Assembly (NCBI GenBank): GCA_903813345.2
Contig: CAIIXF020000008.1
Location: forward strand, 2,553,341 to 2,617,340
Length of the DNA stretch: 64,000 nt
From: Owenia fusiformis
Taxonomy: Eukaryota > Annelida > Polychaeta > Sabellida > Oweniidae
Reading direction: 5' to 3'
The translations under genes were made by a program, and so were the position numbers. The notes beneath the pieces were generated by a model. It was not told where the DNA came from. It did no database searches and worked only from the letters and a program-made list of their open reading frames with translations. The first letter of the stretch is position 1. Every line of letters begins with the position of its first letter. Shown here in pieces: positions 5,976 to 63,300 of the stretch.

Positions 5976-6299
5976 AAGTAAAAACATGATTGTGACATGA
6001 TCATTATGCTTTTGCCACTTAGTGAAAGATTGATATCACATCTATTTGGCATTTGGCATATAACAGAGGTTTCTAAAGAAGTGGAGATGTAGATGTAGGA
6101 CTGTAGGAGTGTTTCCTGATTCAAAATCCTAAGTCTCATGGCAGAGTTTTTATTTTAACATGTTTAATTGCTCCGATGGTATATATATCAAGATTTAGGG
6201 ACAAAAATTTATGTCATTTTAAAGTAAAGCTTTTTTTCTTTACAATGACGAGTTGAGAAATTTAAAAACATCCCACTTACTGAACTTTTAAACTTTTAA

Positions 6300-9200: not shown

Positions 9201-10765
9201 TATAGAAGTGAAATTTCATGGCATGCATTTTCAAAAAGCTTTACATTGGCCATTTTCCTTTACATTCTTGGACTTAGAATATTTTGCGATTGAAAGTTGT
9301 GAACTTTTATAGCATGCATTTTCAAAAAGCTTTACATTGGCCATATTCCTTTACATTCTTGGACTTAGATTATTTTACGATATTTACTTGATAACTTTCA
9401 AGGCATGTATTTTCAAAAAGCTTTACATTGGCCATATTCCTTTACATTCCTGGACTTAGAATATTTCACAAAGCGAATTGTGAACTTTTTATGCAGGCAT
9501 TTTCAAAAAGCTTTACATTGGCGAAATTCCATTACATTCTTGGACTTAGTTTATTTTGCGATTGAAAGTTGTGAACTTTTATAGCATGCATTTTCAAAAA
9601 GCTTTACAATGGCCATTTTCCTTTACATTCTTGGACTTAAATTATTTTACGATCTATAGAAGTGAAATTTTATGGCATGCATTTTCAAAAAAGCTTTACA
9701 TTGGCCATTTTCCTTTACATTTATTAACTTAGATTATTTTACGATCTACATGTATAGAAATGAAATTTTATGGCCTGCATTTTCAAAAAGCTTTACATTG
9801 GCCATTTTCCTTTACATTATTGGACTTAGATTATTTTGCGATTGAAAGTTGTGAACTTTTATAGTATGCATTTTCAAAAAGCTTTACATTGGCCATATTC
9901 CTTTACATTCTTGGACTTAGATTATTTTACGATATATACTTGATAACTTTCAAGGCATGTATTTTCAAAAAGCTTTACATTGGCCATATTCCTTTACATT
10001 CTTGGACTTAGAATATTTCACGAAACAAAGTCATGAACTTTTTATGCAGGCATTTTCAAAAAGCTTTACATTGGCCACATTCCTTTACATAGATTATTTT
10101 ACGATCTATAGAAGTGAAATTTTATGGCATGCATTTTCAAAAAGCTTTACATTGGTCATTTTCCTTTACATTCTTGGACTTAAAATATTTTACGATCTAA
10201 CGAGGAGAAATTTTACAGAATGCATTTTCAAAAAGCTTTACATTTGCCATATTCCTTTACATTCTTGGACTTAGAATATTTCACGAAACAAAGTCATGAA
10301 CTTTTTATGCAGGCATTTTCAAAAAGCTTTACATTGGCCATATTCCTTTACATTCTTGGACTTAGAATATTTCATAAAACAAAGTCATGAACTTTTTATG
10401 CAGGCATTTTCAAAAAGCTTTACATTGGCCATTTTCCTTTACATTCTTGGACATAGATTATTTTACGATCTAACGAGGTGAAATTTTATGGCATGCATAT
10501 TCAAAAAGCTTTACATTGGCCATATCCCTTTACATTCTTGGACTTAGATTATTTTACGATCTAACGAGGTGAAATTTTATGGCATGCATTTTCAAAAAGG
10601 TTTACATTGGCCATTTTCCTTTACATTCTTGGACATAGATTATTTTACAATCTACATGTGTAGAAGTGAATTGAAAGTTGTGAACTTTTATAGTATGCAT
10701 TTTCAAAAAGCTTTACAATGGCCATTTTCCTTTACATTCTTGGACTCGGATTATTTTACGATGTA
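6300..10765 (+). repeat. left arm tandem array (~90-bp units, 913-bp higher-order repeat)
   Basis: About 50 diverged units of roughly 90 bp, each with a CATTTTCAAAAAGCTTTACA core and TTCTTGGACTTAGATTATTT. Ten consecutive units form a 913-bp higher-order block repeated about three times: near-identical segments start at 7201, 8114 and 9027. Open frames here (FTFLDLDYF repeats) are products of the array, not genes. Confidence 0.88.
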
Positions 10766-11599: not shown

Positions 11600-13715
11600 T
11601 AATAGTTTACAACTTTAAATCTTGAAATAATCCAAGTCCAAAAATGTAATGGAATATGGCCAATGTAAAGCTTTTTGAAAATGGATGCCATAAAATTTCA
11701 CTTCTATAGATCGTAAAATATTCTAAGTCCAAGAATGTAAAGGAAAATGGCCATTGTAAAGCTTTTTGAAAATGCCTGAATTAAAAGTTATCTACTTTAC
11801 ATCGTAAGATAATCTAAGTCCAAGAATGTAATGGAATTTTGCCAATGTAAAGCTTTTTAAAAACGCCTGCATAAAAAGTTCACAACTTTGTTTCGTGAAA
11901 TATTCTAAGTCCAAGAATGTAAAGGAATATGGCCAATGTAAAGCTTTTTGAAAATACATGCCTTAAAAGTTATCAAGTATATATATATAGTATATATCCC
12001 TTCTATATATCATAAAATAATGTAAGTCCAAGAATGTAAAGGAAAATGGCCAATGTAAAGCTTTTTGAAAATGCATGCCATAAATTTTACTTCTATAGAT
12101 CGTAAAATAATCTAAGTCCAAGAATGTAAAGGAAAATGTCCAATGTAAAGCTTTTTGAAAATGCATGCTGTAAAATTTCACTTCTATAGATCGTAAAATA
12201 ATCTAAGTCCAAGAATGTAAAGGAATATGGCCAATGTAAAGCTTTTTGAAAATGCATGCTATAAAAATTCACAACTTTCAATCACAAAATAATCTAAGTC
12301 CATGAATGTAATGGAATTTCGCCAATGTAAAGCTTTTTGAAAATGCCTGCATAAAAAGTTCACAATTTTGCTTCGTGAAATATTCTAAGTCCAAAAATGT
12401 AAAGGAATATGGCCAATGTAAAGCTTTTTGAAAATGCATGCCATAAAATTTCACCTCATAAGATCGTAAAATAATCTAAGTCCAAGAATGTAAAGGAATA
12501 TGGAAAATGTAAAGCTTTTTGAAAATGCATGCTATAAAATTCACTTCTATATATGATAAAATAATCTAAGTCCAAGAATGTAAAGGAAAATGGCCATTGT
12601 AAAGCTTTTTGAAAATGCCTGCATAAAAAGTTCACAACTTTGCTTCGTGAAATATTCTAAGTCCAAGAATGTAAAGGAATATGGCCAATGTAAAGCTTTT
12701 TGAAAATGCATGCTGTAAAAGTTCACCTCTTCAGATCGTAAAATATTCTAAGTCTAAGAATGTAAGGGAAAATGGCCAATGTAAAGCTTTTTGAAAATGC
12801 ATGCCATAAATTACACTTCTATATATCATAAAATATTCTAAGTCCAAGAATGTAAAGGAATATGGCCAATGTAAAGCTTTTTGAAAATGCCTGCATTAAA
12901 AGTTCACAACGTTGCTTCGTGAAATATTCTAAGTCCAAGAATGTAAAGGAATATGGCCAATGTAAAGCTTTTTGAAAATGCCTGCATTAAAAGTTCACAA
13001 CTTTCAATCGTAAAATAATCAAAGTCCAAGAATGTAATGGAATATCGCCAATGTAAACTTTTTTGAAAATGCATGCCATAAAATTCACTTCTATATATGA
13101 TAAAATAATCTAAGTCCAAGAATGTAAAGGAAAATGGCCATTGTAAAGCTTTTTGAAAATGCCTGCATAAAAAGTTCACAACTTTGCTTCGTGAAATATT
13201 CTAAGTCCAAGAATGTAAAGGAATATGGCCAATGTAAAGCTTTTTGAAAATGCATGCTGTAAAAGTTCACCTCTTCAGATCGTAAAATATTCTAAGTCTA
13301 AGAATGTAAGGGAAAATGGCCAATGTAAAGCTTTTTGAAAATGCATGCCATAAATTACACTTCTATATATCATAAAATATTCTAAGTCCAAGAATGTAAA
13401 GGAATATGGCCAATGTAAAGCTTTTTGAAAATGCCTGCATTAAAAGTTCACAACGTTGCTTCGTGAAATATTCTAAGTCCAAGAATGTAAAGGAATATGG
13501 CCAATGTAAAGCTTTTTGAAAATGCCTGCATTAAAAGTTCACAACTTTCAATCGTAAAATAATCAAAGTCCAAGAATGTAATGGAATATCGCCAATGTAA
13601 AGCTTTTTGAAAATGCCTGCATAAAAGTTCACAACTTTCAATCGTAAAATAATCAAAGTCCAAGAATGTAATGGAATATCGCCAATGTAAAGCTTTTTGA
13701 AAATACATGCCTTAA
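11600..13715 (-). repeat. right arm tandem array (inverted orientation)
   Basis: The same ~90-bp unit as the left arm but reverse-complemented (GGCCAATGTAAAGCTTTTTG), with about 24 copies. A block of about 543 bases is duplicated in tandem (starting about 12535 and 13078), so this arm has expanded with a different higher-order period from the left arm. Confidence 0.85.
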
Positions 13716-13840
13716 AAGTTTAAAAGTTCAGTAAGTGGGATGTTTTTAAATTTCTCAACTCGTCATTGTAAAGAAAAAAAGCTTTACTTAAAAATGACAT
13801 AAATTTTTGTCCCTAAATCTTGACACTGATGTCCGATGGT

Positions 13841-30356: not shown

Positions 30357-33300
30357 GTAATGTTAGGTCTTAGCATTTTGGTTTTTTAGATCAATTCTAA
30401 CAATTATATCTTAATGAAGCTCAATGATTGAGTATGAGGCTGATAATGTGACCTCTATGAAGCTCGATGATTGAGTATGAGGCTGATATGTGGCATCTAT
30501 GTAGCTCGAAGATTGAGTATGAGGCTGATGATGTGACATCTATGAAGCTTGATGATTGAGTATGAGGCTGATAATGTGACATCAATGAAGCTCGATGATT
30601 GAGTATGAGGCTGATAATGTAACATCTATGAAGCTCGATGATTGAGTTGAGTATGAGGCTGATAATGTAACATCTATGAAACTTGATGATTGAGTATGAG
30701 GCTGATAATGTGACATCAATGAAGCTCAATGATTGAGTATGAGGCTGATAATGTGACATCTATGAAGCTCGATGATTGAGTATGAGGCTGATAATGTGAC
30801 ATCAATGAAGCTCGATGATTGAGTATGAGGCTGATAATGTGACATCTATGAAGCTCGATGATTGAGTATGAGGCTGATAATGTGACATCTATGAAGCTCG
30901 ATGATTCAGTGCAAGGCTGATAATGTGACATCTATGAAGCTCAATGATTGAGTATGAGGCTGATAATGTGACATCTATGAAGCTCGATGATCGAGTATGA
31001 GGCTGATAATGTGACATCTCTGAAGCTCGATGATTGAGTATGAGGCTGATAATGTGACATCTATGAACCTCGATGATTGACTATGAGGCTGATAATGTGA
31101 CATCTCTGAAGCTCGATGATTGAGAATGAGGCTGATAATGTGACATCTATGAAGATCGATGATCGAGTATGAGGCTGATAATGTGACATCTCTGAAGCTC
31201 GATGATCGAGTATGAGGCTGATAATGTGACATCTATGATGCTCGATGATTGAGTATGAGGCTGATAATGTAACATCTATGAACCTCGATGATTGACTATG
31301 AGGCTGATAATGTGACATCTATGAAGCTCGATGATTGAGTATGAGGCTGATAATGTAACATATAGTGAAAAAGTTCTGTTATCCAAATTAATGGAAAATG
31401 CTATTTTTATATTTGTACATGTATATCTATGTAGTATATCTATAATAGACAATGTGTTTATGATTACTGTACCTGAATTGTATGCTTTTATGAATTGAAA
31501 TACAAACCTTATTAAAAATAATTCATCTCCAGGAGGAGCTATTGGATGCAGCCATACAGAGGAACACAATAGTGTGCCTGGGAAATGGCTCTGGGAAGAC
31601 TTTCATTGGCGTGATGCTAATCAAAGAACTGGCTCATGAGGTGCGACAACCTTTCGCAAACAACGGAAAAAGAACAGTTTTCCTTGTTAATACAGGTAAT
31701 TTTTTTTTCTTTTTTTATGTTATAGTCAATTCATATTTTACGAGTGAAGTAAAAGTACAGTAAAACTTGTATATCTGAACACCTCTACAATATGAACACC
31801 TCTCAATGTGAACACTTTTTTCTGTCTTATTTTTTTATCGTCAGATACCAGGTATTGGTCAAACAGCACTCTTCGGTAAATTCTGCACAATCCAGTAAAA
31901 AATCGCACTTTCTGGTAAAAATCACATACAGGTAGGTCATAAAACTGCATCTAAATCACAATTTACAACACTTATCCTATCTGTTCATGATCTATTAAGT
32001 CGAATCACATATTTATCTACCATATTCACCCATAACTGAAGTCACCTTATCTCAAGTCTCATGAACAACCTAGACAAAAGTAGACATATGTCAGTATCCT
32101 AAAAACACAGATGATGTGAAACACATTCCACTTGGTAAACATACTATCAAGAATAAGCTAGGTCAATGGACTTGCAGCTGAAGATAGAGCCTTCGCTTTG
32201 AAATACATGATTTTTTACCTGATTGTGTAGATTTTAACAGAGAGTGCTGTTTGACCTGATAAAAAACTCAAAATGTGAACACATGCGAATCCAAACTCTT
32301 TTAGCTAATAGCAGTGGTGTTTGGATAGACAGGTTTTATTGTATTTAATACAGAAAAATCCAAGGATATCGAATTGAACACTTAGGCTTTGATAATTCGC
32401 AAGTGAGACATTTGTGACATTCTCAAATTACAGTCTTGGAAAGGAGATTAAGATTCCTTTGACAACAATGACTCAGTTTTGACTCTACATTGAAATGAGT
32501 AATGCTAAGTTAAGTTGTTGAAATCAAACATGTGTCTACCTTGAATGGTTCAACTTATATCTTAGTATTGAGGTCAATATATGTGTAAGCTTGCAGAGTT
32601 TCCAAGGATTTTCCACGGATCCCAAGGAATACTAGTCTTCTGACTAGTAAATCTTCAACAAAATATTCTTTGCATTTTTTCAAATTCTCAACGAGGTGCA
32701 AATAGATTTTAAAATTCTCAACCTAGGGCAGGACTAAGTTTCATCAATATTGGGGGATTACTGCTGAATTGGATTCTTTACTTGATGGAGATGTCGTTGT
32801 ATAAAAGCTGATGTGCTGTTACACCTGTCATCATTTTTATGTCACCATCAGAAGTAGATGTTAATGCCTTGTTAATAATGCCTTATGTTCAACAATATCT
32901 CTGCCTCTGGCTCTTATCTGGTCAGTACATGTATTTGCTATTCGTAGTGCACATTGGCTGTTGAATAATTTACATGATTGATACTAATTTAAGACCTAAG
33001 CTGAAATAGGAATGAAGTCTATCTCAACAATTTTTTATATAAAGTGAATCAATCCAAGGGGAGATATAATTACAGCAGTCAGATTTATTCAGGGGGTCAA
33101 TTCTAAGTACATCAAATTGCTCTCATTTATAACCATATTCACCATGTTAAGCGCCTGGATCATTTAAAAACTCAAAATATCTTCACAAGGATGGATATTT
33201 TAAGCACATACAAGGTGGATCAATAAAATGGTCCTTCTTTAAGCTATTACTGAAAATTCCAAGCAATGATATATTTACCATAATATTAAATACCATTAGA

Positions 33301-42300: not shown

Positions 42301-45300
42301 GGTTATCAATGGGAAATGAATTAGAATATGTCTGGGCTTTCGATTCGATGAAAATGTGTTAATTAATATTTTGCTGACTTTGATGAGGAAATAATATAGG
42401 ATATGGAAAATGGATCTAGATGGATCGAAGACTTACTTGGTAATACTAGGAAAGAATGAAAGTTTATAATGCCTGGGAAATAGCTGTCTGATCTCTACTT
42501 TATGAGGAATTCACATTGACTTAATAGGAAGTGTTAGTTATCCCTCCATATAAGGTTTTAATGCATATACATATAATTGACAAAACTTTGTTCCTCACTG
42601 AAACACGACTGCTTGAGGTGTTTAAGGTGTTCCAAAACAAAAAAACTAGTCTCAGTTTGAAGAACGAAGTTCATCAGTATACTGCACGTTACGCCTGCTT
42701 TGGACAATTTTGGTATTTTTACATATATTGTAGATTTAAATGTCCTCTTTAATTTAAATTGGGTGATATTTCTATATTTTTCATAAAATTTTTTATTAGC
42801 ACAGCAGACCGTTCTCCCAGTCCAAACCGAGACTTGTCTTTTACTGAATTGGTGGACACCCCTGCTTCGAAAAATTTTGATATTTTTACATATTGTAGAT
42901 TTAAATGTCTTCTTTTGAATATTCATAATTTAATTTAGCTGTTATTTCTATAATTTTCATTAAAAAATTATCCCAGTAGACTGTTCTCCAAATTAAGACT
43001 TGTCTTTTATTTCTAATTTTTATATTTAGTATGCATAATTTTGACATGACCTTGAAATAGCTTTTATCGTAAAAAATGGAGAAAAAAATTCTTATTCTTC
43101 ACCCTTTATAGAGTCTAAACACTATTTTTCACTTCATCCAGGGACCTTCCTGATGCCTGTAAATAGCATCTCCTTTTTCTAATAAAAGGTAGAGCTCAGA
43201 AAATCAACACCAGGCTACTTAAAAAACTGACACTTATGTAAATAACTAGGGTTGTGCAGCCACGTGCGATACCTCTAGAAAAGTTCCAGAAATCCTAGTC
43301 TGATGATAACGGAAAGGGAGTTCTAGGTTCTAAAATATTTCCTGTTTACTTGATAAATCTAATTCAGTTCTGCATCAGCTTACAGTAAACATTCTATCCT
43401 CTCCTAAATGATTCCATGTTTTAAGCAGAATCAGGTCTATGAGGGTGACAAAATTACAAGCAACATGTACACTCGACCTACCAATTTTCTTACATCTCAA
43501 ATACAATATCTCCCAAAAGATTCGCGATATGTTATAAATTGGTGAAGTTATGATGGATTCTAAGTGCAAAAATGGGTGAAAAATGTTTAAATTCTCTCAA
43601 ACAATAATACATTATTGTAAAAATCTGAAGTTTTCCTGAAATAAAGACATGAAAAAGAATGATATAAGCCAGAAATATTCTAAAATTGAAACAATTTTTT
43701 TGTTAAGCTGCTTGCTAGATCTGATTCTCTCTTTAAGTATGGTAAGTCCTTGGAGGGTGCATATATTGCTACCAAGTTATTCCAATTTTGAGATGTTTCA
43801 TATTTCATTTATTAGATTAACTTTACGATATCCTGAATATCATATTGCGTGTCATCGACAATTTGTTATTGATTAGATTATCCCGTGTTTGACTTATGTA
43901 GTCATTAGCCCTAGACAAGGGTTGCCTTGGGGAAGGAGTGCAGACAGGCATCACAGACTTGACTGGGCACGATGACCTGACCTTGTTTCCCATAATATGT
44001 TTCCCATGGCCTTGCACTCAACTCATAAATTCATTCTAAAGTAGTCAGCACTGTGTCCCATTTGTTCACTTGCTTATTTAGGAGAAGCAATTATCCTATT
44101 GTTAAACACTGCTATGGAGCAGCTTAGCTGATTAATATTCATGATTTGAGCTATATATAAGTTCTAAAATGCAAGAATGCCCAATGTCCTCTTTAAGAAC
44201 CCCTATTCTTAACAGGATATTAAACACTCCCCCCAGTTTTCTGCAAGTTAAAATGCTCAATTCTGCAAGTGAAATTAGTGAATTCTGCAAGAAGAAAGGG
44301 CTAATTCTGCAGAAATTCCGCGGATATTCTGACGAGAACTGAAAGAAAAACTAATGGTTTTCGAACCAGTAAACGGGAAAATATCGTGATAGTCAGGTAG
44401 TCAGTCACTACATACATGCTGCCATCTAACGGCAGAAATCAAACGATGGCGTTTAGAATTTTCACTTCGCATAATTTGGGTTATTTCTGCAAGGGATTTG
44501 ACTGAAAACGTGTCAGATTGTTACAGGTAAGACTGACTTTTTAAACTTTTGGAAAATATATGGATTCTGCGGAAAATTCCGCGGAAATTGACCAAAATAG
44601 TTGATTCTGCAATTCCGCGGGCAGAGGCAAATTCCGTCCGCGCTCTGCAAACACGGAATCCTGGGGGCAGTGATTAAAGCTTAACTAAGAGCTTTTTGAA
44701 AATTTTGGTAGGCTTTACTTTTCTTTTTTTAGCTGTTATTTCAAATATATGAACTATAAATTTTATTATGTGAGTTACTACATTTTGATATATGAACTGC
44801 ACATTTTATAAGTTACATTTGCTGTGTGAGTTGCTTTTTGATATATGAGTTGCTAAATGAGTTACTAAAATCTTGATAAATGAGATGTGATGTTTATGTT
44901 TATTATGAGTTGCTATATTTGTATATGAGTTGCTATATTTGGTATATGAGTTGCTACATTTGATATATGAGTAGCTATATTTGGTATATGAGTTGCTACT
45001 TTTCATATTAGAGTTGCTATATTTGGTATGTGAGTTGCTACATTTGATATATGAGTTACTATATTTGGTATATGAGTTGCTACATTTGATATATGAGTTG
45101 CTGTATTTGGTATATGAATTGCTACATTTGATATATGAGTTGCTATATTTGGTATATGAGTTGCTATATTTGGTATATGAGTTGCTACATTTGATATATG
45201 AGTTGCTATATTTGGTATATGAGTTGCTATATTTGATATATGAGTTGCTATATTTGGTATATGAGTTGCTACATTTGATATATGAGTAGCTATATTTGGT

Positions 45301-48300
45301 ATATGAGTTGCTATATTTGGTATATGAGATTCTACATTTGATATATGAGTTATTATATTTGGTATATGAGTTGCTACATTTGATATATGAGTTGCTATAT
45401 TTGGTATATGAGTTGCTATATTTGGTATATGAGTTGCTACATTTGATATATGAGTTACTATATTTGGTATATGAGTTGCTACATTTGATATATGAGTTGC
45501 TATATTTGATATATGAATTTCTACATTTGATGTATGAGTTGCTATATTTGGTATATGAGTTGCTATATTTGATATATGAGTTGCTATATTTGGTATATGA
45601 GTTGCTACATTTGATATATGAGTAGCTATATTTGGTATATGAGTTGCTATATTTGGTATATGAGATTCTACATTTGATATATGAGTTATTATATTTGGTA
45701 TATGAGTTGCTACATTTGATATATGAGTTGCTATATTTGGTATATGAGTTGCTATATTTGGTATATGAGATTCTACATTTGATATATGAGTTATTATATT
45801 TGGTATATGAGTTGCTACATTTGATGTATGAGTTGCTACATTTGATATATGAGTTGCTATATTTGGTATATGAATTGCTACATTTGATATATGAGTTGCT
45901 ATATTTGGTATATGAGTTGCAACATGTGATATATGAGTTGCTATATTTGGTATATGAATTGCTACATTTGATATATGAGTTACTATATTTGGTATATGAA
46001 TTGCTACATTTGATATATGAGTTGCTATATTTGGTATATGAGTTGCTATATTTGATATATGAGTTGCTATATATTTGGTATATGAGTAACTACATTTGAT
46101 ATATGAGTTGCTATATTTGGTATATGAGTTGCTACATTTGATATATGAGTTGCTATATTTGGTATATGAGTTGCTATATTTGGTATATGAGTTGCTATAT
46201 TTGATATATGAGTTGCTATATTTGGTATATGAATTGCTACATTTGATATATGAGTTGCTATATTTGGTATATGAGTTGCTACATTTGATATATGAGTTGC
46301 TATATTTGGTATATGAGTTGCTATATTTGATATATGAGTTGCTATATATTTGGTATATGAGTAACTACATTTGATATATGAGTTGCTATATTTGGTATAT
46401 GAGTTGCTACATTTGATATATGAGTTGCTATATTTGATATATGAGTTGCTATATTTGGAATGTGAGTTGCTACAATTGATATATGAATTGCTACATTTGA
46501 TATTTAGGTTGCTATGTTTGGTATATGAGTTGCTACATTTGATATATGAGTTGCTATATTTGGTATATGAGTTGCTATATTTGATATATGAGTTGCTATA
46601 TTTGGTATGTGAGTTGCTACATTTGATATATGAATTGCTACAATTTGATATTTAGGTTGCTATATTCTGTGTTTGGTCAGTGAGTTGCTACATTTTATAT
46701 ATAAGTTGCAATATTTGATATACAAGTTCCTACATTTTCCTTATTTGTTACTACATTTCCATGTTATTTTACAGCAAATTATTGAACAAAACAGTTTCAA
46801 AACTATTGCTTGAACTATTAGAAGTTCATTCAAGTGCTATCTAGTAGATAGGTTAATTCCTATTACTTATCTGTCATGTAGACCTACAAGCAAATTAAGG
46901 TGATTGAGAAACTGGTAAATTTCAAAGTAACATATACCAGGTTTTCCTTGCATAAGAAACCTTCATGGTAGACCTTGAAATGATAATCATGTTTTGAATG
47001 TAAACTAGGGACTTCATTTTTTCCCTCTTTGTACATGGTAAAGTCAGAAATAGAGTAGAAAGTATATGGAAGAATGTTTCTACATGGGGTCATGGATGCA
47101 TGATACTGTGGAGCACTGTAGATTATAAAGTTTTAAATCAAAGGAAGTGATGCAATACATTTAATTAGTAATCTTACTTAGGCAGGGGTTTAGACAGATT
47201 CAAAAATAGGCAATGTAGATGGAATTAGGTGAGGTTAAATAAATTAGGTAAGCCAAATTGAATTGGGTGAGGTAAATTGAATTAGGTGAGGTAAATTAAA
47301 TTAGGTAAGCCAAATTGAATTGGGTGAGGTAAATTAAATAAGGTAAGCCAAATTGAATTGGGTGAGGTAAGTTGAATTAGGTGAGGTAAATTAATTAGGT
47401 AAGCCAAATTGAATTAGATGAGGTAAATTAAATTAGGTAAGCCAAATTGAATTGGGTGAGGTAAGTTGAATTAGGTGAGATAAAATTATTAGGTAAGCCA
47501 AATTAAATTGGGTGGGGTAAGTTGAATTAGGTGAGGTAAATTAAATTAGGTAAGCCAACTTGAATTGGGTGAGGTAAGTTGAATTAGGTGAGGTAAATTA
47601 AATTAGGTAAGCCAAATTGAATTGGCTGAGGTAAGTTGAATTAGGTGAGATAAAATTATTAGGTAAGCCAAATTGAATTGGGTGGGGTAAGTTGAATTAG
47701 GTGAGGTAAATTAAATTAGGTAAGCCAAATTGAATTGGGTGAGGTAAATTGAATTAGGTAAGCCAAATTGAATTGGGTGAGGTAAATTGAATTAAGTAAG
47801 CCAAATTGAAGCCAAATGAGGCAAATTAAATTAGATGAGGCAGATTGAATTAAGTAATGCAGATTGAATAAGGTGAGTCAAATTGAATTAGGAGAGACAG
47901 TCTAAATTAGATGAGGTAAGTTAAATTAGGCAAGGCAAATTGAATAAGGTCAGGCAAATTGAATTAGGTGAGGCAAATTTAATTAGGAGAGGCAAATTGA
48001 ATAAGGAGAGGCAAATTGAATTAGTTGAGGCAAATTGAATAAGGAGAGAAATTAGGCGAGGTATGCTAATTTAGGCAAGGCAAATTAAATTAGGTCATGC
48101 AAATTGAATTAGGAGAGGGAAACTTAATTAGGTGAGGCAAATTTAGGAGAAACATATTGAATTAGGTGAGGCAAATGGAATTGGGTCAGGCAAATTGAAT
48201 TAGAAGAGGTTAATTAAATTAGGTGAGGCAAATTAAATTAGGCAAGGCAAATTAAATTAGGAGAGGCAAATTAAAAGAGGTGCATCATTGAATTAGGGGA

Positions 48301-51300
48301 GGCAATTTAAATTAGGCAAGGTAAGTTAAATTAGACGAGGCAAATATAGGCTAAAGAAGGTATAGTATTATCCTTTCCACATTTCGCTTCATTTCCACAG
48401 ATTTAGTTGAAAAATGTTTGATGAAGCAGTAGCCTCGCTTGACTTATGCCTGGCAGTAGCTACACCCATGTAATGGTTCTAAGGTGTGTCCATTCTGACA
48501 AATAGGAAATGGGTGAGTCTGAATGACAGGCTGTTAGTTTCGATTTTCAGTCTAATCTAAGTTATAAGATATACGCTCAGTAGAAGAACGGCAACAATGA
48601 TGAATTGAATTTGTCTAAGTTAGATTTACTACAACAGGTATGACATATTGTTATTGGAGATACTAGTTAAAAAGACTTGTTTTATCGGAAATAAATTGTC
48701 TATGATTGCGACAGACAGATTAATAATATAATTAATGTTCCAATGATTTAAGGCTAGACTGGTTCGCTGTAAACTAGTTATTATTTGATTGGAGATGTGA
48801 TAAAGGTCTTACTGGTGTTGCATAAATCACAGGTTTTATATAAACATATATATATATATATCCTGGGAATAAAACGATGTTTTAGTCATTTTCTAAATAA
48901 GCATAAGTGTAAGGAGTGTAATTATAAAGAACTAAAATACACAGTTATAAAAAATACACTCTTTTAAGTAATGTAAAATTAAAAAAGCATAAAAATACAA
49001 ACTAATTACCATGGTAATAACAATGTCATTTTAATCTTGGGATTTCCACGTAAATCATGATGATATTTTATCAATAAAAAAGCCTGTACATTTGACTTGT
49101 AACATCTGTCTATATCGCCTGGAAGTTGCTTGTCAGGCAGGGGCAGACATAGATATATAAATTAGGTGGCTGCATGCAACAAGGGCTCTAAAAACCTGTG
49201 AGTATCTTGAACTACATTGCAATTAGATTATACAGATTTTTGTGCTTAGTGTATGGTAAGGGGTTGTTTATCGAAGCTGATATTCTGTTACATGATTTTA
49301 TTGGACAAGAGCAGGTAAATACTTTTTGAGTTATTCTTTGGTGTAAATGATGAGGGTAAGCAGAAAGGCCAAATGTTGAATATATTTACTTATGCTATAG
49401 GTTAGTGTCTGGGGCAACACTGTCTTATCATTAGGTCAGTACTACAACTGTCTTGTTGCAAGGTCAGGGCCTCAACTGTCTTGTTATAAGGTAAGGGTCA
49501 CAACTATCTTGTTCTAGGGTCAAAACCACAACTTTCTTGTTACAAGGTCAGGGCCATAGCTGTCTTGTTACAGGGTCAGGACCTCAACTGTCTTGTTATA
49601 AGTTCAGGGCCTCAATTGTCTTGCTTAAGGTCAGGACCACAACTGTCTTGTTATATGGGTTAGGACCACAACTGTCTTGTTACAGGGTCAGGGCCTCAAC
49701 TGTCTTGTTATAAGGTCAGGAACTCAATTGTCTTACTTAAGGTCAGGACCACAACTGTCTTGTTACAGGGTCAGGGCCTCAGCTGTCTTGTTATAAGGTC
49801 AGGAACTCAATTGTCTTACTTAAGGTCAGGACCACAACTGTCTTGTTACAGGGTCAGGGCTTCAGCTGTCTTGTTATAAGGTCAGGAACTCAATTGTCTT
49901 ACTTAAGGTCAGGGTCACAACTATCTTGTTCTAGGGTCAAAACCACAACTGTCTTGTTACAACGTCAGGGCCATAGCTGTCTTGTTAAAGGGTCAGGGCC
50001 ATAGCTGTCTTGTTTAAGGTCAGGGCCTCAATTGTCTTCCTTAAGGTCAGGATCACAACTGTCTTGTTATACAGGGTCAGGGCCTCAGCTGTCTTCTTAT
50101 AAGGTCAGGAACTCAATTCTCTTGTTTAAGGTCAGGACCACAACTGTCTTGTTACAAGGTCAGGGCCATAGCTGTCTTGTTTAAGGTCAGGGCTTCAATT
50201 GTCTTCCTTAAGGTCAGGATCACAACTGTCTTGTTACAGTGTCAGGGCCTCAACTGTCTTGTTGAAGGTCAGGACCTCAATTGTCTTGTTTAAGGTCAGG
50301 ACCAAAAACTGTCTTGTTATAAGGTCAGGATCACATTTGTATTGTTAAAGGGTCATGGCCTCAACTGTCTTGTTTAAGGTCAGGGCCTCAATTCTCTTGT
50401 TTAAGGTCAGAACCACAACTGTCTTGGTACAGGGTTAGGGCCATACCTGTCATATTATAAGGCCAGGATCACAACTGTCTTGTTATGAGGGCAGGTCTTG
50501 TTGTATGGTCAGGGTCTCAACTGTCCTTAAGTCCAGGATTACAACTGCTTTGTTACATGGGCAGGTTTTGTTATAAGGTCATGACCACAACTGCCTTGTT
50601 ATAGGGTCATTCAAGCCCCTCCCGAGAAAATGATCCTTCATATGAAGTCAGTCGATGGTGAATTAGACCACCTATGAAGCAAAGTACCTTCTGTTTTTAC
50701 TGTAAATTACATGTTTTGCACATGCTGCGAGGCTTTTGCCACTTATGCCTAATACCAGTGAAAGGTCTGAGAAGAATAACCATAACTGAAGAGAATGTTC
50801 AAACATGTGCTTATGTTACTTGAAGCCTTCCCACTGTACATCTATAGGTAAATCCATGAGAATACGGATGTGTGCTCGCAGCTGATTTGCTTTGTTTTTA
50901 ATCATCATTTATCATCTGAAATCTTTGAAAGTAAATTGTATTGAAGATTGATAAATAAAACATAGCTTATGTGATGTAGCCCCATTTGGTAGACTCCCTT
51001 GGTAACATTGCTTATGTGTCTTACTTTTGCACTGGTGCCTAATGTTATTTGTGGACTTCTAATGATTCCGTGACACATACCTTTAAATGCACTTTTCAAT
51101 ATTGGTAACCACTCTTTAAAGGCACCTTTTCTGAAAATTTTGTTACTTTTACTAACCCCAAAAAATAATGGTAATTTTTAAGGCCTATATTGTTATTAAG
51201 CCAAATGGTATTGTCTCATTCATAATAGATTACCAGCAAAGCAGGAATTGCGTGTATGGGAGATATATTCATTGTTCTGCCTAATACATAAAACATGTAT

Positions 51301-54300
51301 ATCAATCCCATTATCAGACTCTATTATTGTTATTTTATAAGTGAACTTTATGATACATCAATAGATAGTTACACTTAGCCAGATGTGTTTGCGCATCAGG
51401 GAAATGCCACAGTGGTTTTCTTGCAGTGTCAAATAACACAAAGAGGAAGGCGGATTCCATGGCAACCAAGCATGTTATAACATGAATTCTCTGGAAATGC
51501 AAGAAATATTTTTACTAAGAAAAGCTGGAATAGACATGCGCCAATTAACACTGAAGTAATATAACGCATAATGAAAGTTGAATTGAATGTACGTAGGATC
51601 ATATCGATATTCATTTATGTGCAATTGAAAATGAATGTATGTTTTGTAATTTTAGCTACTAATGAAGTTTGATATTTTTTGATTGATTCATACTTTTCTA
51701 ATTTGTACTAAGTGAAACTGTAGACACCTGTATATTACACTTTCTACGTTGGAGTCAGACTAATTAATTCGTCGATTCTTTATTTGTTGCAGAATCCCTG
51801 GTGTCGCAGCAGGCAAAAGTTATCAGACTTCACGCAGACTTGACAGTCTGGGAATATGTGCCAAATATGGGCATTGATGGATGGTCTTGTGACCAATGGG
51901 TGGAGGTATTCAACCAATCACAAGTTCTGGTTATGACAGCTCAGATATTCCTTGATGTTTTGAATCGTGGTTTTCTGAAACTATCACATGTGAATGTATT
52001 GATATTTGATGAATGCCATCAAGCGGTAGGTAATCATCCATATGTGAAGATAATGAGTCACTATGATGATGTGCGTACCGATTCAGATCAACCGAGGGTT
52101 TTGGGGCTGACGGCATCATTGCTCAACAATAAGTGTAATACTTCCAACAGTCTTGAGGCGAGTCTCACCACACTTGAGCAGACCTTACGTTGCACAGTGG
52201 AAACAACCAGTGATATGATTGCAGTAGACTCATTTGGGGCAAAACCCAAGCAGTTTGTTATAAAATGTGAACCATACATCGATAAAACTGGACTTGTTGA
52301 GTCACTAGGTGCAATATTAAACAGTGCCATAGATTTTTTACAAGACTCTAACATGAAGTTTGGTGAAAGTGAAAAAGATCCACATGCAATAGCTAAATCG
52401 TCCCTAATGGAATGCCACAAGATATTACATGGTTTGGGGCCATGGTGCTGCGAAAAAGTGGCACGTACGATATCCAAACAGTTGAAGAAACTTGAAGAAA
52501 CAGAAAAACATGATCTCAATCGGCGGATTTTTCAGTTTGCCCTCACGCAGCTGAGGATCGTCTCAGCATTGTTCAATCACAACTTTAATAAATTTGTATA
52601 TTCTCTTGAAGATTTCAAACTTTACGTTTCACCAAGGATTTTACATCTGGTAGACATTTTATGCCAATATAAACCAAAAGCAGATTTTAAAATCATCGGG
52701 GAGCCAGGTGTTGTAAATGATGACAATTATATGGATGGCGCCGAGTCATCAGACGAGGAGCAAAATGAACCTGGCACTGATTCTGATTTCTCTGACGATG
52801 AATCTCTACCTTTACCTCCAGCTTTGAAGAGCTCAAATAAAAAGGTTAAGGATCGGGAAAGAGATGGTAGTTTGAACGCAATGCATTATGTTGCTGTCGC
52901 GACAGAATCTGAATCTGAACCATCACAAATTCAGTCAAAACGTGCAGATGCGTTGTGTGGAATTGTTTTCGTGGAAAGGCGACATACAGCTGTAGCACTT
53001 GATAAACTCTTACAAGAGTTCTGTAACTGGCACGAAGACTTGTTCTTCCTTAATAGTGCCCATCTCACAGGTAAGCTATATCATATAATCCTTTTATCTT
53101 GAAAGTGAAAAACAAAATATACATGTACATGTACATACCTTTATTCTGAAGAGAAGATTAGAGAAAGCCAAAATACATTTTAGAGAAGTTTTGTTAAATG
53201 GCGAAGTTGAAAGAATAAATGTTAATAAATATTTTTAAAATTAAAGTTATATTACTTTAAGATGTAACATTGCAAACACAACATCCGTAACACTTCCTCA
53301 TCACATAAGAAACCATGTTCTACTATTTAGGATACTCCCAGACTCAGAAGCCAGGTGGGAAGAACAAGGAGCAGGAAGAGATCTTACGAAAGTTCAGAAT
53401 GCACGAGACAAACTTGATGGTTGCGACAAATGCAGTTGAAGAGGGGGTAGACATCCCTAAGTGTAATCTAGTGGTTCGCTTTGATCCCTCCAAAGACTAC
53501 AGAAGCTTTGTGCAGTCTAAGGTAACCTTTACGCCATATAGGGAGGAGAGTTAAGGTGAAACAACATGATAATGCCTTGTGTATGACAATTATACTGGTG
53601 TATGTTCTATTATTTATGTAATTTCCCCTCTTAGTTATGAAATTTCTGTTCAGTCAAAACTAAATAAAAAAAATCAATCTGCTCGTTCCTCTTCCACCTG
53701 GCTGGTATGCTACGCGCATAGTTTTACAATTTTTCAGACTAGCCTTAAAAAAGGCAAGGCCTTAGCCAGCTTTTATCTAATTTTTCAGTACATCTCAAAA
53801 ATGCTCAAAAATTCCAATTATGAAACCAGCATTAGTAACTTGCACTTCCATTACTCAAACAAATTCTCAAATTGCATATTTTTTAAAAAATGTATGTCAA
53901 AATGTGCCTGTTTGAGAGAGGAGGGAAAATCAGAGCTCTATGGACAGGAAAGGAATCGCTTTGCCACTTTTCCATTCTGATCCTATCTTTTAGTATTGTT
54001 AATATATTACATGGTTTATAAAATTTATAAAATCAAAAATTGATGATTTACCCATGATACTAGAGAATAATAGCGTATGTATGTATGTAAACGGCACCTT
54101 TGTTAAAAAATGAATTGTGAAAAGGTGTTGAATAAGTGTTTTGTAAAACATTTTTTACAAAAGATTGTGTGACAACGTGATTCCCATGTTGAATTCCCAG
54201 GGCATCTTGTTTTGTCTGCTCATATTCAAGAAATTGGAATATTATTAATATTTGCTCTTGGGAGAAACTTTAATCTTGTTTTTGACACAGGCTGTCAATA

Positions 54301-57300
54301 GATGTGTCTTGGGAGTCATACCCCAGTTTTAAACTAATTTATGTACACACGCTATCGTCAGATGAGTTATGTCTCAGTTTGGAACTAGTTTAGGGACACA
54401 AACTATCACCAGATGTGTCTTTTGAGTCATGTCTCAGTTTGAAACTAGTTTAGGTGCATAAGCTATCACCAGATGTGTCTTTGGAGTCATGTCTCAGTTT
54501 GAAACTAGTTAAGGTGCATAAGCTATCACCAGATGTGTCTTTGGAGTCATGTATAAGTTTCAAACTAGTTTAGGTGCATAAGCTATCACCAGATGTGTCT
54601 TTGGAGTCATGTATAAGTTTGAAACTAGTTTAGGTGCATAAGCTATCACCAGATGTGTCTTTGGAGTCATGTCTCAGTTTGAAAATAGTTTAGGTGCATA
54701 AGCTATCACCAGATGTGTCTTTGGAGTCATGTCTCAGTTTGAAACTAGTTAAGGTGCATAAGCTATCACCAGATGTGTCTTTGGAGTCATGTCTCAGTTT
54801 GAAACTAGTTTAGGTGCATAAGCTATCACCAGATGTGTCTTTGGAGTCATGTCTCAGTTTGAAACTAGTTAAGGTGCATAAGCTATCACCAGATGTGTCT
54901 TTGGAGTCATGTCTCAGTTTGAAACTAGTTAAGGTGCATAAGCTATCACCAGATGTGTCTTTGGAGTCATGTCTCAGTTTGAAACTAGTTTAGGCACACA
55001 AACTATCACCAGATGTGTCTTTTGAGTCATGTCTCAGTTTGAAACTAGTTAAGGTGCATCAGCTATCACCTGATGTGTCTTTGGAGTCATGTCTCAGTTT
55101 GAAACTAGTTTAGGCACACAAACTATCACCAGATGTGTCTTTTGAGTCATGTCTCAAGTTTACACTAGTTAATTTGAAAGATTTTCTTGAGATAATATGT
55201 CATATGAGTCGAGTGTCAAGGTTTAAACTAGTTATACTCATTTAGTGCCATCAATATCTGTGTCTATTATCTATGACAGTTACTATAATACACCAACTAA
55301 ATATCACTCTCAACACTAAACCTTCGATGACTTGATTATAGAATAACCATGATGTAAAAGGAATAGCAATAATAAAGTGCTCTTTGTAATCTGTACCTAT
55401 CTGGTCTATAATGATAAATGGATCTGCAATGTTTGCTCAATACTCAATATACCATTTTCATTGATATATTAGAAAATCATAAAAAAGTATGCTAGATTTA
55501 TTGATTGCTGGAGGATTAATGTAATATTAAATGTATGGCATAATTGGTTAATCCAGATAGTTACCTGTCTCGCCAGCCCGATTGTTGCGGGAATATAATA
55601 GCTTGTTGCACCACAGATGAGTTCGATGATTTAATAAGTACTATGGTTACCATCCACTTTATATTGATAGAGCAATTACAAAATGCTTTGGATCTTGTTA
55701 CGGCTAAATTAAAGCTATAAAATTTATTTTAGTGGATTTCCATTTGCACTTTTGTTTGATTAAAACACTGTCAGATATTTCCTGTGTTGAATCTAAATGA
55801 CCGCTTATTTATACTTTGATCCTAGCGTTCAGGTTGTCTGCTCAAGAACTCTGCAATGTTATAAAGTAAATGCATCATGCACTTCCGTGTTTTTAGTGTT
55901 TGTTCTCTCTTTAGAAGCATCCAAGTAGATCACATCCATTATTAATTGATATTTTCATTGAGAAACAAAGGTGGAATATGTTTTATTTGAAACATTACAT
56001 ATTTCTTTTTTCTAGGATGATCCCAATAAGTTTGATTTTTCTACAAAGTTCCAATATACCATTTGAAAGTGTCAGCTTTGAGGATCTGGATTTACAAAGA
56101 AAGCCAGAAAGTTGTGTATTGATGATGTCACCTATGTCGGTCATAATAATATGTAAGTGATATTGATGTAAATATCATTGTAGGGTCGTGCCAGAGCTGT
56201 TGTGTCAAAGTTCTATATGCTTGTGGAGAATCAGTCTTGGGATACTTTCTCTACTGAACTACAGGTTTTCAAGGATATTGAAAAGGTGAGGAATTAAATC
56301 CACAAATGATACTAAAGTACAATGAAATTATCGACCCCTCCATGGATGAACTGGGTAAATTATATTTTTTCATATTTTCTGAAATTTCAGTGATTGTCAG
56401 AAAAATACAATTTTCCAATGTCCATCTTAATCTTATTCTTGTAACTTCTTCTTACTGCTGATGTAAAATGTTTGTTTCTTTGGGATAATTCCCATATCCA
56501 AAATGCCTTCTTCTGTATATCTATAGATCTTGAAAGGAAAGTGTCACAACCATGACGATGAATCAGATGATGAGAGTGAACAGATATGTGACCAAGATTT
56601 ACTGCCCCCTTATAGACCAGTTAATGAAGATGGCGCCCCTGCAGTGACCATGACCTCTGCCATTGGACTAATCAACAGGTACAAAAATCACTGTCATTGA
56701 ACATTTTTTGCCATTTTTGGAAAATATGATACCTTTCTAGAAGATTCAAAAAAATAGACCAGACTTTTCCCTCTTCATATACAGTAATATACGTATATCC
56801 AAGTTGCACTATACTTTCACTTTTTCTCAGCCACATTTTCAGAGTACCCTTTTCTGGATGTTTATATAATATTATTTCCAACATGACTCTTGTGATCCTG
56901 GTCATGTAAATTTGTGGACAAAATCAAATTGAAAGTCAAAAGAGAAGTCTTCTATTTTGAAGAAATCCAGCATGCTTTGGTTTGGCCACCTTGCACCCAC
57001 TTCTTGCTTAGTACAGTTAGACTTTAAATTACTTTTTATAAAAGATTTGATCACTGGAATATTGAACTGGGCCCCCTTTAGAACATCAATTTATAGCATA
57101 TCACTTTGTGCGCTATCTACATTCCCTTTTCTCAGCCACTTTATTTCTCAAATAGCATGCCATCTCCCATTTGGGGGACTGTTTATGATATAAGTGATTA
57201 GGTGACTGTATGTTCTGTTGTATGTAACACCTTTAGATTGCTACCTCATCACTCCAAATTTGAAATTTATTTGGAATTTCTGTTTCAACTACATGCTCTA

Positions 57301-60300
57301 TATGGAAAGTACACTTTGCCTCTAAACACTCATGCATCTTACAATTTTTTCTGAAACTTTAGATTACAACGTTCAAGAAAAAAATATAGTCACATTAGGG
57401 GTTTAAAGATAACTTGTTAAAGGTGCAATTATTTGGATGCCTGTAAATTGTAGTCTAGATGTCTGTTAAGTGAGGAGAGTTACTCTAATTTCACCCTAAA
57501 ACATGCCAGAGCAGACTGATAAATTTACCAGAATACAAATAAATTCTATGGACTTATTGAGATCAACATTTTTTATATGATAGTTTAAATGTGCTCAATG
57601 ATAAAGGTATTTCAATTTTCAAGATTTTTAACATGGGCTCTATGGGGATTTAACTCAGCCTTGCTATTTCATGTTCAAAAGTTAAAGTATCAAAAAATGA
57701 TGAGAAAATTGATTTTTCCATCTATTTCTACTGCCATCTATTGTATATATAGATATATTAAATATTATGAAATTTAAATAAAAAACATGAGATGATTTCA
57801 TTTCGTTGCAACTAGTTTTTTTGTTCAAATCCTCAGGTAAAACAATATTGAATATTATATATATTAGATACATTGGGTTGTTTAGACATTGAATCAAAAA
57901 CTCCTCAATGGAGCCTGGTGTTCATTTTATCCCCTTAATACATAAAAGCATTAAAGCATACAATTTTGAACTAGTTGTGGACCACTCAGTCGAACATCCT
58001 GAATTACTAACCGCAATAAGCATAGTGCATAACAAAGTAATAAATGGTTGGGTCTGAAATACATTTTACGCTACTCATGAGATTAATAGTATAACAAGCA
58101 TGACATTAAGCTTATGTATAGGCTAATACTAGGTGTACAGATCGTTATTATAGTGTTTGTCAGTAATTTGGTGCCAGTAGTCTGCGCCTTAAGATTAAAT
58201 GGAAGTGTGAAATGACAACTTTGTATTCCATTTAGAATCCATTAAGTTATTTGATTTGACATTTTCACAGTCTCCAATCTCTATAAAAAATCCATATTCA
58301 CCATTTGCTTTTACTGTTATTTTAGTCTCTCCGACATTCTTAATATTAATTGTCATGATTAAAAAATTTATTTTTCAAGGTAATAGTATGCAAAATCCCT
58401 TTGATACAGTACTTCAAATAGTACAGAACATCAAATGGTAAAGTATATCAAATAGTACAGAACATCAAATAGTACAGTACATCAAATAGTACAGTTCAAC
58501 AAACTATGCAACAAAAACTTGCTAGGGGTATTATATTACGAAAATTTGGGATATCATAGGTGTGTGTCCCATTCATCCCCCCTCTATTAATTTAGATATT
58601 TAGAAAGAGATGAATGTGAGCCATTAATAAGTCTGAAAGGTTAAAGCTCATTCTAAGAAAGTAAGTTATGAAAAACAAAGAGGATATTAGCAGAAAGTCG
58701 AATTGACTCTGTATCATATACATGGCAACGTGAATGCTTTTTACTGAAGGTGTGTTTAATACCTTTCCAGCTGCATTTTACTCAAATCAGTCTGCGTCCA
58801 TAATTCTTGCAACATTCTCTTCGAGATTTCTTACAGGAAATGATGTCATAAATGCATTGGTCTTAAATATAAGACACTAAATTTTTAGTTACTATTTCAC
58901 GCTTATGACAATGATTATCATTGAAAATTGTACATGTAGGTATGGTTGTCTTCTTGTGCTGCTAGGCATGTCTTGGTGGGTAGGTGCCACATGAATCTTG
59001 TCATCAAAATTCCAGGAAAATCACTGTTCAAATTATTAAGAGTAAATTATGGCGGCCATTTTGCTCTTCAAAGTGTGATAATTATCATTGTTAGTACCTC
59101 AATTCAAATATTCAATTCTGATTGGTTGATCAGTGGTCAACAGTATGTACTGTTGACCGCTACTAGGAACTGTTGACCCCTACTTTTGAAAAAAATGTTT
59201 TTACAGTATCTGTATACAATTTTGCCAGTTGACCTCAAGAGAGGTCTACAATTGTATACCGTGTGTCTTGTTCTTTTAGGTACTGTGCCAAACTGCCAAG
59301 TGATGCTTTCACACACCTCACCCCCAAGTGCTATGTAGAGGAAGTGGAAGATAGGGGGACAAGGAAATATATTGCCACTCTGCATCTTCCGATCAACTCT
59401 CCTATAAAGGAGGCAATAAAAGGATCACCCATGCCAACCAGGAAGCTGGCTAAGATGGCTGTAGCATTGAGAACTTGCAAGACACTACATGAATACAGTA
59501 AGGATTTATTACAAACAACATTAATTTGAACCTTACTGGTCAAACAGTTCTCCTTAACCTTAAGTCAAGCAAATGTCATTAATAGTAGCACAGTAAAACT
59601 TGCCAAGTGGAACACCTCGGAACACCTCCATAAGTGCAGGCCCATCAGATCTCTTTCTACCCATAAGTGGAACACCTCCAGAGTGGAACACTATTCTTAG
59701 GTTCCACATGTGTTCCACATACACAAGTTCTCCTGTATATTTCACATATTATGATGTTATGTTAAGTACTGTATCAAATATACCGTTTCAAAGCAGTGTA
59801 GGGTAGAGCCTGTCAGCTTCTTCAATGAACTAAGTAGCTTAATATAATTCATCTGTCTCCATGTTCCCTTCCTCGAATATATGAGTGCATATAATATGCC
59901 CTTGATGCCTGAGTGCATATGTATTTGATGTATGAATGAGTGCACGTGTACCGGATCTAGTAAATACATGTGCATATTTGTGTACTTGTAGAGGAGTTAG
60001 ATGACCAGCTGCTACCTGTAGGGAAAGAGATCTATAAGTATGAAGATGAGGAGAATGAATGGGAGACCACTGAAGCTAAGGGTCAACCTAGACCTGGGAC
60101 AACAAAGCGCAAGCAGTATTATGACAAAAGGGTCAGTATTATGACAAAAGGGTCAGTATTATGACAAAAGGGTCAATATTATGACAAGAGGGTCAGTATT
60201 ATAACATGAGGGTCAGTATTATGACAAGAGGGTCAGTATTATGACAAGAGGGTCAGTATTATGACAAGAGGGTCAGTATAGTGACAAGAGAGTCAGTATT

Positions 60301-63300
60301 ATGACAAGAGGATCAGTATTATAACATGAGGGTCAGTATTATGACAAGAGGGTCAGTATTTTGACAAGAGGGTCAGTATTATAACAAGGGAGTCAGTATT
60401 ATGACAAGATTGTGGACAAGAGGGTCAGTATTTTGACAAAAGGCTCAGTATTTTGGCAAGATAGTCAGTATTATGACGAGGGTGTCAGTATTATGACAAG
60501 AGGGTCAGTATTTTGACAAAAGGGTCAGTATTATGACAAGAGGGTCAGTATTATGACAAGAGGATCAGCCTTATGACAAGAGGGTCAGTATTGTGACAAT
60601 ACTTCAAGTGGCTTATGATGCTATAAACAAAGCCTCTACAAGTGTTAATGTTTTATTAGCACTTTTATTAGTACTTTTATTCTTAAGGTCTTAATTAATT
60701 CTGTGAATAAAAAGAGAAGAGAAGTTTCTGAGCTTCTTACATTCTACCCATGTTTCTTTTAATCAGTCACCTTTCTGTGTTATTCTAACATCAGGGTAAG
60801 ATTCCTTATATTTCCAGTCTAGGATGTCACAATTTTCTAAAAATATATAAAATTGAGGAAGCGCATTATCAAGTTTCTGAAGAAATCACGTTTGTAATAT
60901 ACTCCTAATTTTGTCTTTCACTCAGTAACTAGACATTACCTAACCTTTTAAGTGCCATTTCTTATATTTCGTGACATATTGATTTTTATAAGTCTATTAA
61001 TACAATATCTCAATTAACTCAGCAGGATTTCCAGGTGTATTGATATAGTATGAAAGTGAGATTCAAGGTATGAGCTTGTAGTTTAACTGAATCCGTTGAT
61101 GACTTGAAAGTTTTAAGCCATTTTCATTGGTTATGAGCAAGACACTTCTCTTCTATACAGAATTGAACTCATTGGTTTGATCCATTTTGTAAATTTTATC
61201 GTCATATGTTATTAAAATTGATTTGATTTAACTAATTTTTTTTTTAAACAATAAGTTTATTTCATTGATATATTTTTCATGGCATAAGACACAATCATAC
61301 GGCAAATTCCCTTTTGTCATTGTATGTTCGCTTTCAATAACAACGTTACACATAAAATAAGAAAAATTTAAAAAATAAAACACACCCACTGTTTAGATCT
61401 GGCATGTTATAAATGAAGAGTACTAATTAACTAATTAGTGACATAAAATGCTCAATTACATATTTAGAAATCATGATGTCTCTAAACTAAAGTTTGGTTT
61501 CATATGATATTTAAAATTAGTATGTGAGGATGATATTATTCCAAAATATTCTGAAATTGAGAGTTTTTGGAAATGTTACTTGGTGTCCTGATTATCTCGT
61601 TGAATGAAAAAAGAGAAGCTATCCATCCCTCTAAATACACTGCCTCGGGCGATGACATCAATACCAGTTATAAGATTCAGTTTAACTTACATCATAGGCA
61701 TAGGATTTCTGCTCATGGAAGAATTTCCTTAGTGACATCAATTCAAAATAGCCCTCATTTTTCATAAAGAAACGTAAATTTTGTTAATTCAAATATAAGT
61801 TGATTTGGTTCAAATTATAAATAGCCACCATTTTGTAAACTTGTTCTCCTTTTAAATGTAATTTGATTGCCCCATTAACGTGCTTTGGTTAAATTCAAAA
61901 TAGATATGCTTCATTTATGGGATTTGCTACTCCATGGAGCTGTTTTTTACAAATCTACCTTTTAATATGTAATTCTGTTTTACATTCAGATTGCTAATGC
62001 GCTTTGTAACAGTTGTCCAAAAGTTGGTTCTAAGTCATTTCTGTATGTTGTGAATATGAAGTTGACAAATCCAATATCTGAGGACCAGAACACCAGAGGG
62101 CGCCAGCTGTATCTTCCTGAGGAAGCAGCATGTAACATTGGTATCCTAACCTCTAAGGAGATAACAAAGGTATTTATTAATATTGATCATATTTGATATG
62201 GTTTTGAGTGAGTGAGCTTAGTAAAATTTAATGAGTGAATTCCAATTTGAAATTAACTGTATAAAACTTGTGAATAACCCAGATGCGAGTAGAAATAATA
62301 TTGATTAACGTCATTAAAAATTAAAAATTCAGTCAAAGTAATATCATATTTGAAATCTACTTGTAAAATTACACGTAGAAATGTGGTTTTAAAAAGTGTT
62401 TATCAACTTTGAAAAATTAATTTTCTTTGAAAATGTGACTTCTAGCTCGGGGAGATTCCCCATAGACCCCATGCTATAAAATCCCGAAAAATGAAATATC
62501 TTTTCTTTTAGTGGACAGATAATATTTTGCTTTACTGGACATATTTTCATTAGTATAAGTATTAGACACATAAGGGTTATTTGAAAATCGAGCCACTTAA
62601 ATTGATAATATTCAAGTTTAAGGGAACTTTCTTATATACCTGCCATGTTAATTGACCCGAATCAGCCACCTGGTGGTGAAACCGGTAACTACCTACTCGC
62701 ATTTGGGTAATTGTGAGTGTTCATTTGCAGTGAATTTGAATAGAACGATAAGATGCTTGCTGAATATCGTCATAATATATTCACATTTTCTAGATCCCGC
62801 AGATCCCAGTGTTCACAAGATCAGGTGAAGTCTCTGTGGTGATAGATCTCTATACATCACAATTCACGCTGACTGACTCTGAATTCACACGGCTAGAGAA
62901 CATACATCGCTACTTCTTCAAGAGTGTTCTGAGGTTGGAGAAACAGCCCATGGTGTTTGGACCCTCTGAAGCTAAATGTGGCTTCCTAGTTGTACCACTT
63001 ACAACAGGTAGGTTTGATGAAGGGATGTGATGGATATGGTTCAATACTAGAACTGTAGAATATATGTTTAATTAATTCCACTTTATTTCCGAGTGTTATT
63101 TTCATCAATCTTGACCATTGATATCAATGGGAATTTGACGGATTTTAGCAAACTTTGACCTCATTTTGCAAATATGAACCTAAATTTTCAATGTTCATGT
63201 TTTAACTGCATTGATTGTAGTTGCGTCTAAAGTGGATATTGACTGGAATTTTGTCAGCAGAATCGAGGCAAACCAAGCAAGTCCCCGTCGAGTCAACATC

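Follow-up and report, generated by a model that had tools for sequence, protein, structure and literature searches.

Within a 64,000-nucleotide stretch of Owenia fusiformis DNA (hereafter, the window), a Dicer gene carries a minisatellite that runs over the end of one of its exons into the following intron and multiplies the donor (5' splice site) of that exon. We read this array, with a probability of roughly 0.78, as a boundary-spanning minisatellite of the same build as the lancelet repeats known as mirages; its first donor would be in use and the rest would stay passive. The array is one of several of this kind in the same genome, its structure not being peculiar to Dicer. Given that similar arrays sit at other exons and resemble the lancelet mirages, the Dicer array is probably a tolerated oddity and not a dial for Dicer output.

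Under the proposed explanation, the last 18 coding bases of the Dicer exon, together with the first bases of the intron, would have been copied into the intron as head-to-tail duplicates. The spliceosome would normally take the 5'-most copy, by exon definition and the upstream exonic context, after which the array would be removed with the intron. The array would turn over at its exonic edge, and its effect on Dicer output would be small.

A minisatellite across a Dicer exon end

The window contains nine Dicer exons (31533-31695, 51793-53070, 53331-53521, 56184-56285, 56527-56678, 59280-59497, 59992-60131, 61990-62169, and 62794-63007) that, joined at GT-AG sites, give one open frame of 879 residues, whereas the two remaining frames contain 55 and 87 stops. 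For the long exon, the PDB returns matches to Dicer chains (top E 9.2e-73). The array begins in the exon at 59992-60131 (counted as exon 8 in the earlier note), which ends in KRKQYYDKR, is open and is in phase with both neighbors; homology and the exon model place the next exon (IANALCNSC...) at 61990-62169. Around the array, 181 residues align without gaps, straight through the junction QYYDKR|IANALC, with the five Dicer chains shown by the PDB search; the search names the molecule only, and we take the chains to be mouse and human. Because this junction is gapless against the Dicer chains, use of the first donor would preserve the conserved protein. A second Dicer carrying the array was ruled out: a genome search with 372 Dicer residues gave a single match outside the locus, a 67-residue segment on C12 with internal stops that comes from the region beyond the array's exon, and found no match elsewhere in the genome for the exon preceding the array.

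Tandem Repeats Finder places the minisatellite at 60114-60599 on the forward strand, like the exons at 59992-60131 and 61990-62169 and the first donor, the weak alternative site, and the TGA described below, with a period of 20 bp, 24.7 copies, 84% matches, and a score of 678. The limits proposed in the earlier note (60117-60600) were thus right to within a few bases, and its description of a repeat that starts inside the exon and includes the splice site AGG|GTCAGT stands as well. The first unit includes 18 coding bases (60114-60131, encoding QYYDKR), all 18 of which recur in the next unit, so that the repeated segment straddles the boundary with 18 exonic and 2 intronic bases. The array comprises 15 exact AGGGTCAGT donors, and the site AGG|GTCAGT is found nowhere else in the window on either strand. 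The statement that every unit recreates nearly the same donor holds for most units but not for all, given that 3 of the 23 scored units have lost the GT.

Copies 1-3 (60114-60173) share a single sequence, that of the exon copy, which no other copy of the array has; compared with the array consensus, they carry a synonymous variant (AAA instead of AAG, both Lys). All three exon-identical copies were placed first in a fraction of 0.0005 of random orders, and turnover that is still going on at the exonic edge would be the simplest reading of this arrangement. Across the array, adjacent copies are no more similar than random pairs (P 0.27). The copies differ from each other by a mean of 2.6 of 20 bases, which speaks against an assembly artefact through collapsed or expanded repeat reads, as does the presence of the same structure at other loci; tandem arrays are error-prone in assembly, and one copy of the locus was found, but we find such an origin hardly credible.

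When the unit was searched at up to 2 mismatches in the 498-Mb genome, 18 of the 19 matches fell inside the Dicer array, so that a chance match is excluded and a dispersed origin of the unit is ruled out. As the unit is confined to this locus, the array appears to have arisen there, and it most likely formed in place, most simply from the exon end. A genome search with the whole stretch recovered the complete locus once, along with one further weak place (C12, 79% identity, a 19-bp array).

Predicted outcomes of donor choice

The splice product was computed for each GT of the array. Among the GTCAGT-type donors, only the first (AGG|GTCAGT, 60129-60137, cut between 60131 and 60132) gives an uninterrupted frame, with gapless homology over the junction. 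Donor 2 (60151) shifts the frame, and a stop is then met in the next exon, 119 nucleotides before the following junction, whereas all GTCAGT-type donors after it retain an in-frame TGA at 60162-60164. The frame shift at donor 2 and the TGA for the third donor had been anticipated in the earlier note, along with the claim that only the first donor joins the next exon in phase; this last claim is accurate for GTCAGT-type sites but does not extend to a weak alternative site, TCA|GTATTA (60153-60161, cut between 60155 and 60156), which is in phase and stop-free and would add 24 nucleotides (8 residues). Judging from frame and homology, the first donor is probably used and the others ignored.

The weak site is one of two candidates for a true donor that lies elsewhere and would make the array donors irrelevant, the second being AGG|GTAAGA at 60795, below the array, which equals the array sites in its match to the donor consensus (6/9). 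We regard this alternative as very unlikely. Although the frame of the site at 60155 is free of stops, its predicted pairing with U1 is weak (-3.3 kcal/mol compared with -7.8 kcal/mol for the array donor), and its use would add 8 residues into a gapless alignment; the site at 60795 would retain the TGA. These energies were calculated with the U1 5' end entered by hand and the pairing register picked by the program. By the same measure, the first donor ranks fifth among the nine Dicer donors. The possibility that the first copy is a stronger donor was ruled out, its U1 energy being equal to that of its exact copies.

The earlier note further suggested that array length or donor choice could tune functional Dicer mRNA, in which case a share of transcripts would use later donors, gain premature stops, and be degraded, the share following array length. 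Such tuning appears rather improbable to us. The 15 exact donors include later ones identical to the first, and the stops predicted for later donors precede the next exon junction by at least 119 nucleotides, a distance at which nonsense-mediated decay usually acts. There is also a precedent, discussed below, in the human CBS repeat, according to the title of a report cited in PMC2630376, and one mirage paper (among PMC3087553 and PMC3902484), in the part available to us, allows that copied splice signals could serve as cryptic sites. Against this, the donor bases mutate like the rest of the unit: harmful later donors might erode and useful ones might be kept, but mismatches to the consensus in the donor columns (14/207) and in the rest of the unit (19/253) gave no signal of selection in either direction (Fisher P 0.86), the donor columns being neither protected nor eroded, with 3/46 mismatches at the GT itself. 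In addition, the same geometry recurs at other, unrelated exons, and the lancelet mirages are reported, in the portions consulted, to leave regular splicing undisturbed (PMC3087553, PMC3902484). Tuning of Dicer output by the array finds no support here.

Donor arrays elsewhere in the genome

The survey for comparable arrays sought three consensus donors (AGGTRAGT or narrower forms) at minisatellite-like spacing, using three patterns; for the first two, the matches listed cover part of the genome, so that the cluster counts given here are counts among the matches listed. These matches form 39 clusters, the 5' flanks of which were all examined, with frames chosen by eye with the acceptor in view. 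At 23 of the 39, the array begins at an exon-like frame that stays open up to the first donor, and the following unit repeats 5 to 42 of the exonic bases that precede this donor; the 23 include two near-identical loci (L046 and L047) and one that is perhaps a coding repeat (L028).

Peptides from 21 of the 23 exons were compared with Pfam, the short exons L046 and L047 being left out and L043 being represented by 150 of its 182 residues. Support from Pfam or the PDB was obtained for 8 of the 21 peptides ending at the first donor. Seven match Pfam at E <=0.05, namely, TPR (1.1e-13), Tudor (1.1e-10), Reeler (1.8e-4), MIR (1.5e-3), Rieske (3.4e-8), Kringle (7.6e-5), and Il2rg (7.6e-8), the MIR and Kringle matches falling under the curated cut-off. 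The TPR exon (L058) matches CDC23 in the PDB (9.5e-28), and the eighth peptide (L049), one of the 14 of 21 without a Pfam match, matches NCS-1 (2e-10) to the very last residue before the donor. The Pfam-negative peptides also include L028 and L038, and of the thirteen remaining ones, the three tried against the PDB (L054, L043, and L061) had no match there. Eight control frames, six in the wrong phase from the same loci and two from uncounted clusters, were likewise unmatched in Pfam.

The 16 uncounted clusters are of several kinds. Six are dispersed elements (L031, L034, L037, L039, L035, and L056), one (L030) is a further array that lies shortly below the one at L029, and one (L063), by eye, lies just above an acceptor on the opposite strand. 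The others (L032, L033, L041, L042, L048, L050, L052, and L059) lie within introns or have no clear exon; near L059, there is a methyltransferase exon recognized by Pfam, but the array begins below the donor of that exon.

Several points weigh against our reading of the Dicer array and of its relatives. The sole use of the first donor is a prediction from frame and homology, and where strong 5' sites compete, classic work favors the intron-proximal one, so that use of the first copy is not automatic. The fly Dcr-1 match pairs 179 query residues with 187 chain residues, implying gaps, the location of which was not seen. Among the candidate exons, 13 of the 21 tested peptides lack homology support, and these, along with the two others, are identified by an open frame and an acceptor alone. 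No claim of a genome-wide excess of donor arrays can be made, given that the backward-pattern controls exceed two of the three donor patterns (452 vs 347, 354 vs 174, and 34 vs 42 matches). Finally, the length of the CBS array is associated with lower enzyme activity, going by the title cited in PMC2630376.

A related question is whether, in this genome, splice junctions are preferred seeds of tandem duplication, with transcription-linked breaks as one conceivable route, and are not merely places where it is tolerated. Such a preference would fit the 23 of 39 donor clusters that start at exon-like ends with the exonic tail copied, compared with exon starts at only 2 of 15 clusters of an acceptor motif. 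The survey, however, took only donor-containing arrays and so is no evidence of a preference for exon ends; in any genome, many of the AGGTRAGT sites may be real donors, and the backward controls reveal no excess. The acceptor-like repeated motif TTTTCAG gave 906 matches, against 187 for its backward control; the 15 clusters were chosen by eye among the matches listed, with apparent dispersed families excluded, and 9 of them were tested against Pfam. In the two recognized cases, Sushi (4.4e-4) and ETF-QO (4.8e-3, under the cut-off), the exon opens at the last copy, and at the ETF-QO locus, apparently only the part before the acceptor is repeated. As donor and acceptor patterns differ in base rate, we draw no ratio from the two counts. 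We consider preferred seeding unlikely.

We tentatively suggest, at somewhat less than even odds, that donor-spanning minisatellites are recurrent and genome-wide in this lophotrochozoan, have arisen apart from the lancelet mirages, and amount to a natural experiment. If so, each first donor at an exon end has to prevail over as many as dozens of near-identical copies downstream, which implies either a strong rule in favor of the 5'-most donor or a cost that grows with array length for the gene. Studies of how a 5' splice site is chosen among identical neighbors usually rely on engineered constructs with few sites; this genome offers natural arrays of a dozen or more near-identical donors each, some of them at conserved genes. 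The recurrence of the arrays raises their interest in that it would allow a test of how one donor wins among many equals.

Individual loci of the survey have features of their own. At the NCS-1-like exon (L049, G000:C6:25129990-25131255), the last 42 bases and the donor are repeated as a 44-bp unit. The end of the CDC23-like exon (L058, G000:C8:10822835-10824100) is repeated with a 42-bp unit, a multiple of three that, by eye, is open in the stretch seen; hence, use of later donors might, in principle, append TPR-like repeats in frame. At L028 (G000:C1:5411200-5412460) and L009, a 33-bp unit recurs about 15 times in one open frame (HSFDTEVSPNA), with a consensus donor in many units, which would make it either a repeat of coding sequence or an array that has become exonic. 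The near-identical exon ends L046 and L047 (G000:C6:14302180 and C6:14335000) lie about 33 kb apart, and because both carry the same donor array, the array seems to be older than the duplication. An acceptor-spanning counterpart is present at L076 (G000:C1:266350-266900), where the last copy of a repeated acceptor opens the Sushi exon.

Other repeats are found in the window itself. The Dicer intron at 31696-51792 (about 20 kb) is rich in minisatellites, with a 21-bp unit repeated 87 times at 44904-46737, a 19-bp unit repeated 60 times at 47222-48345, and a 28-bp unit repeated 39 times at 49419-50495; units of the 19-bp and 28-bp arrays contain AGGT-type donor-like sites, yet lie well inside the intron. 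A 91-bp satellite forms two large blocks (6291-10648 and 11600-13720), apparently in opposite orientation.

Relation to known boundary-spanning repeats

The lineage of the host is indicated by homeobox genes clustered on C1, one with the peptide KLTGP, which we take to be Lox5, and two with Lox2/Lox4-type ends, presumably Lox2 and Lox4. The Hox cluster extends over about 0.5 Mb (G000:C1:17970454-18468341, with two further matches at its start) and, by names that we assign, contains the types Lox4, Lox2, Antp, Lox5, Scr/Dfd, Hox3, Hox2, and Hox1. The Lox2, Lox4, and Lox5 genes led us to reject a lancelet origin of the genome; a search for the GFP family gave no match, but neither did its controls. 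In the literature searched, judged by titles in part of the results, we found no report of boundary-spanning donor arrays in a lophotrochozoan. The Dicer array is a member of a known structural kind. Boundary-spanning minisatellites, described in lancelets and humans, are suggested to occur in another animal branch, where they might contribute to the growth and gain of introns.

In human segmental duplicates, tandem repeats are sited at exon-intron boundaries, as is the Dicer array, but there, according to the portion of the source consulted, variation in the repeats of recent paralogues is reported to create novel introns as well as alternative splicing (PMC2812944). Similar in composition is the 31-bp variable number tandem repeat of human CBS, c.1444_1467+7(16_21), in which, by its name, each unit consists of an exon end and an intron start, 24 exonic and 7 intronic bases compared with 18 and 2 in the Dicer array, in 16-21 copies, both arrays comprising about 20 (PMC2630376, seen in part). 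As a point of difference, the CBS repeat is known to be polymorphic in length, and a report cited in PMC2630376 connects it, by its title, with reduced enzyme activity.

The mirages of lancelets are tandem repeats over exon-intron boundaries, described, in the parts of the sources available, for Adh3, troponin C, globins, and PGBD5 (PMC3087553, PMC3902484). They are reported to be unstable in length and to leave regular splicing and mRNA undisturbed, and they can affect 5' as well as 3' boundaries. The unit of the Dicer array also spans an exon-intron boundary, and many, though not all, of its units carry the splice signal. The differences are that Dicer is not among the genes named for mirages in the parts seen and that the host, with its lophotrochozoan Hox genes, is no cephalochordate, the host group being no structural criterion. 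The Dicer array therefore has the structure of a mirage, yet we do not term it an amphioxus mirage, its host being no lancelet.

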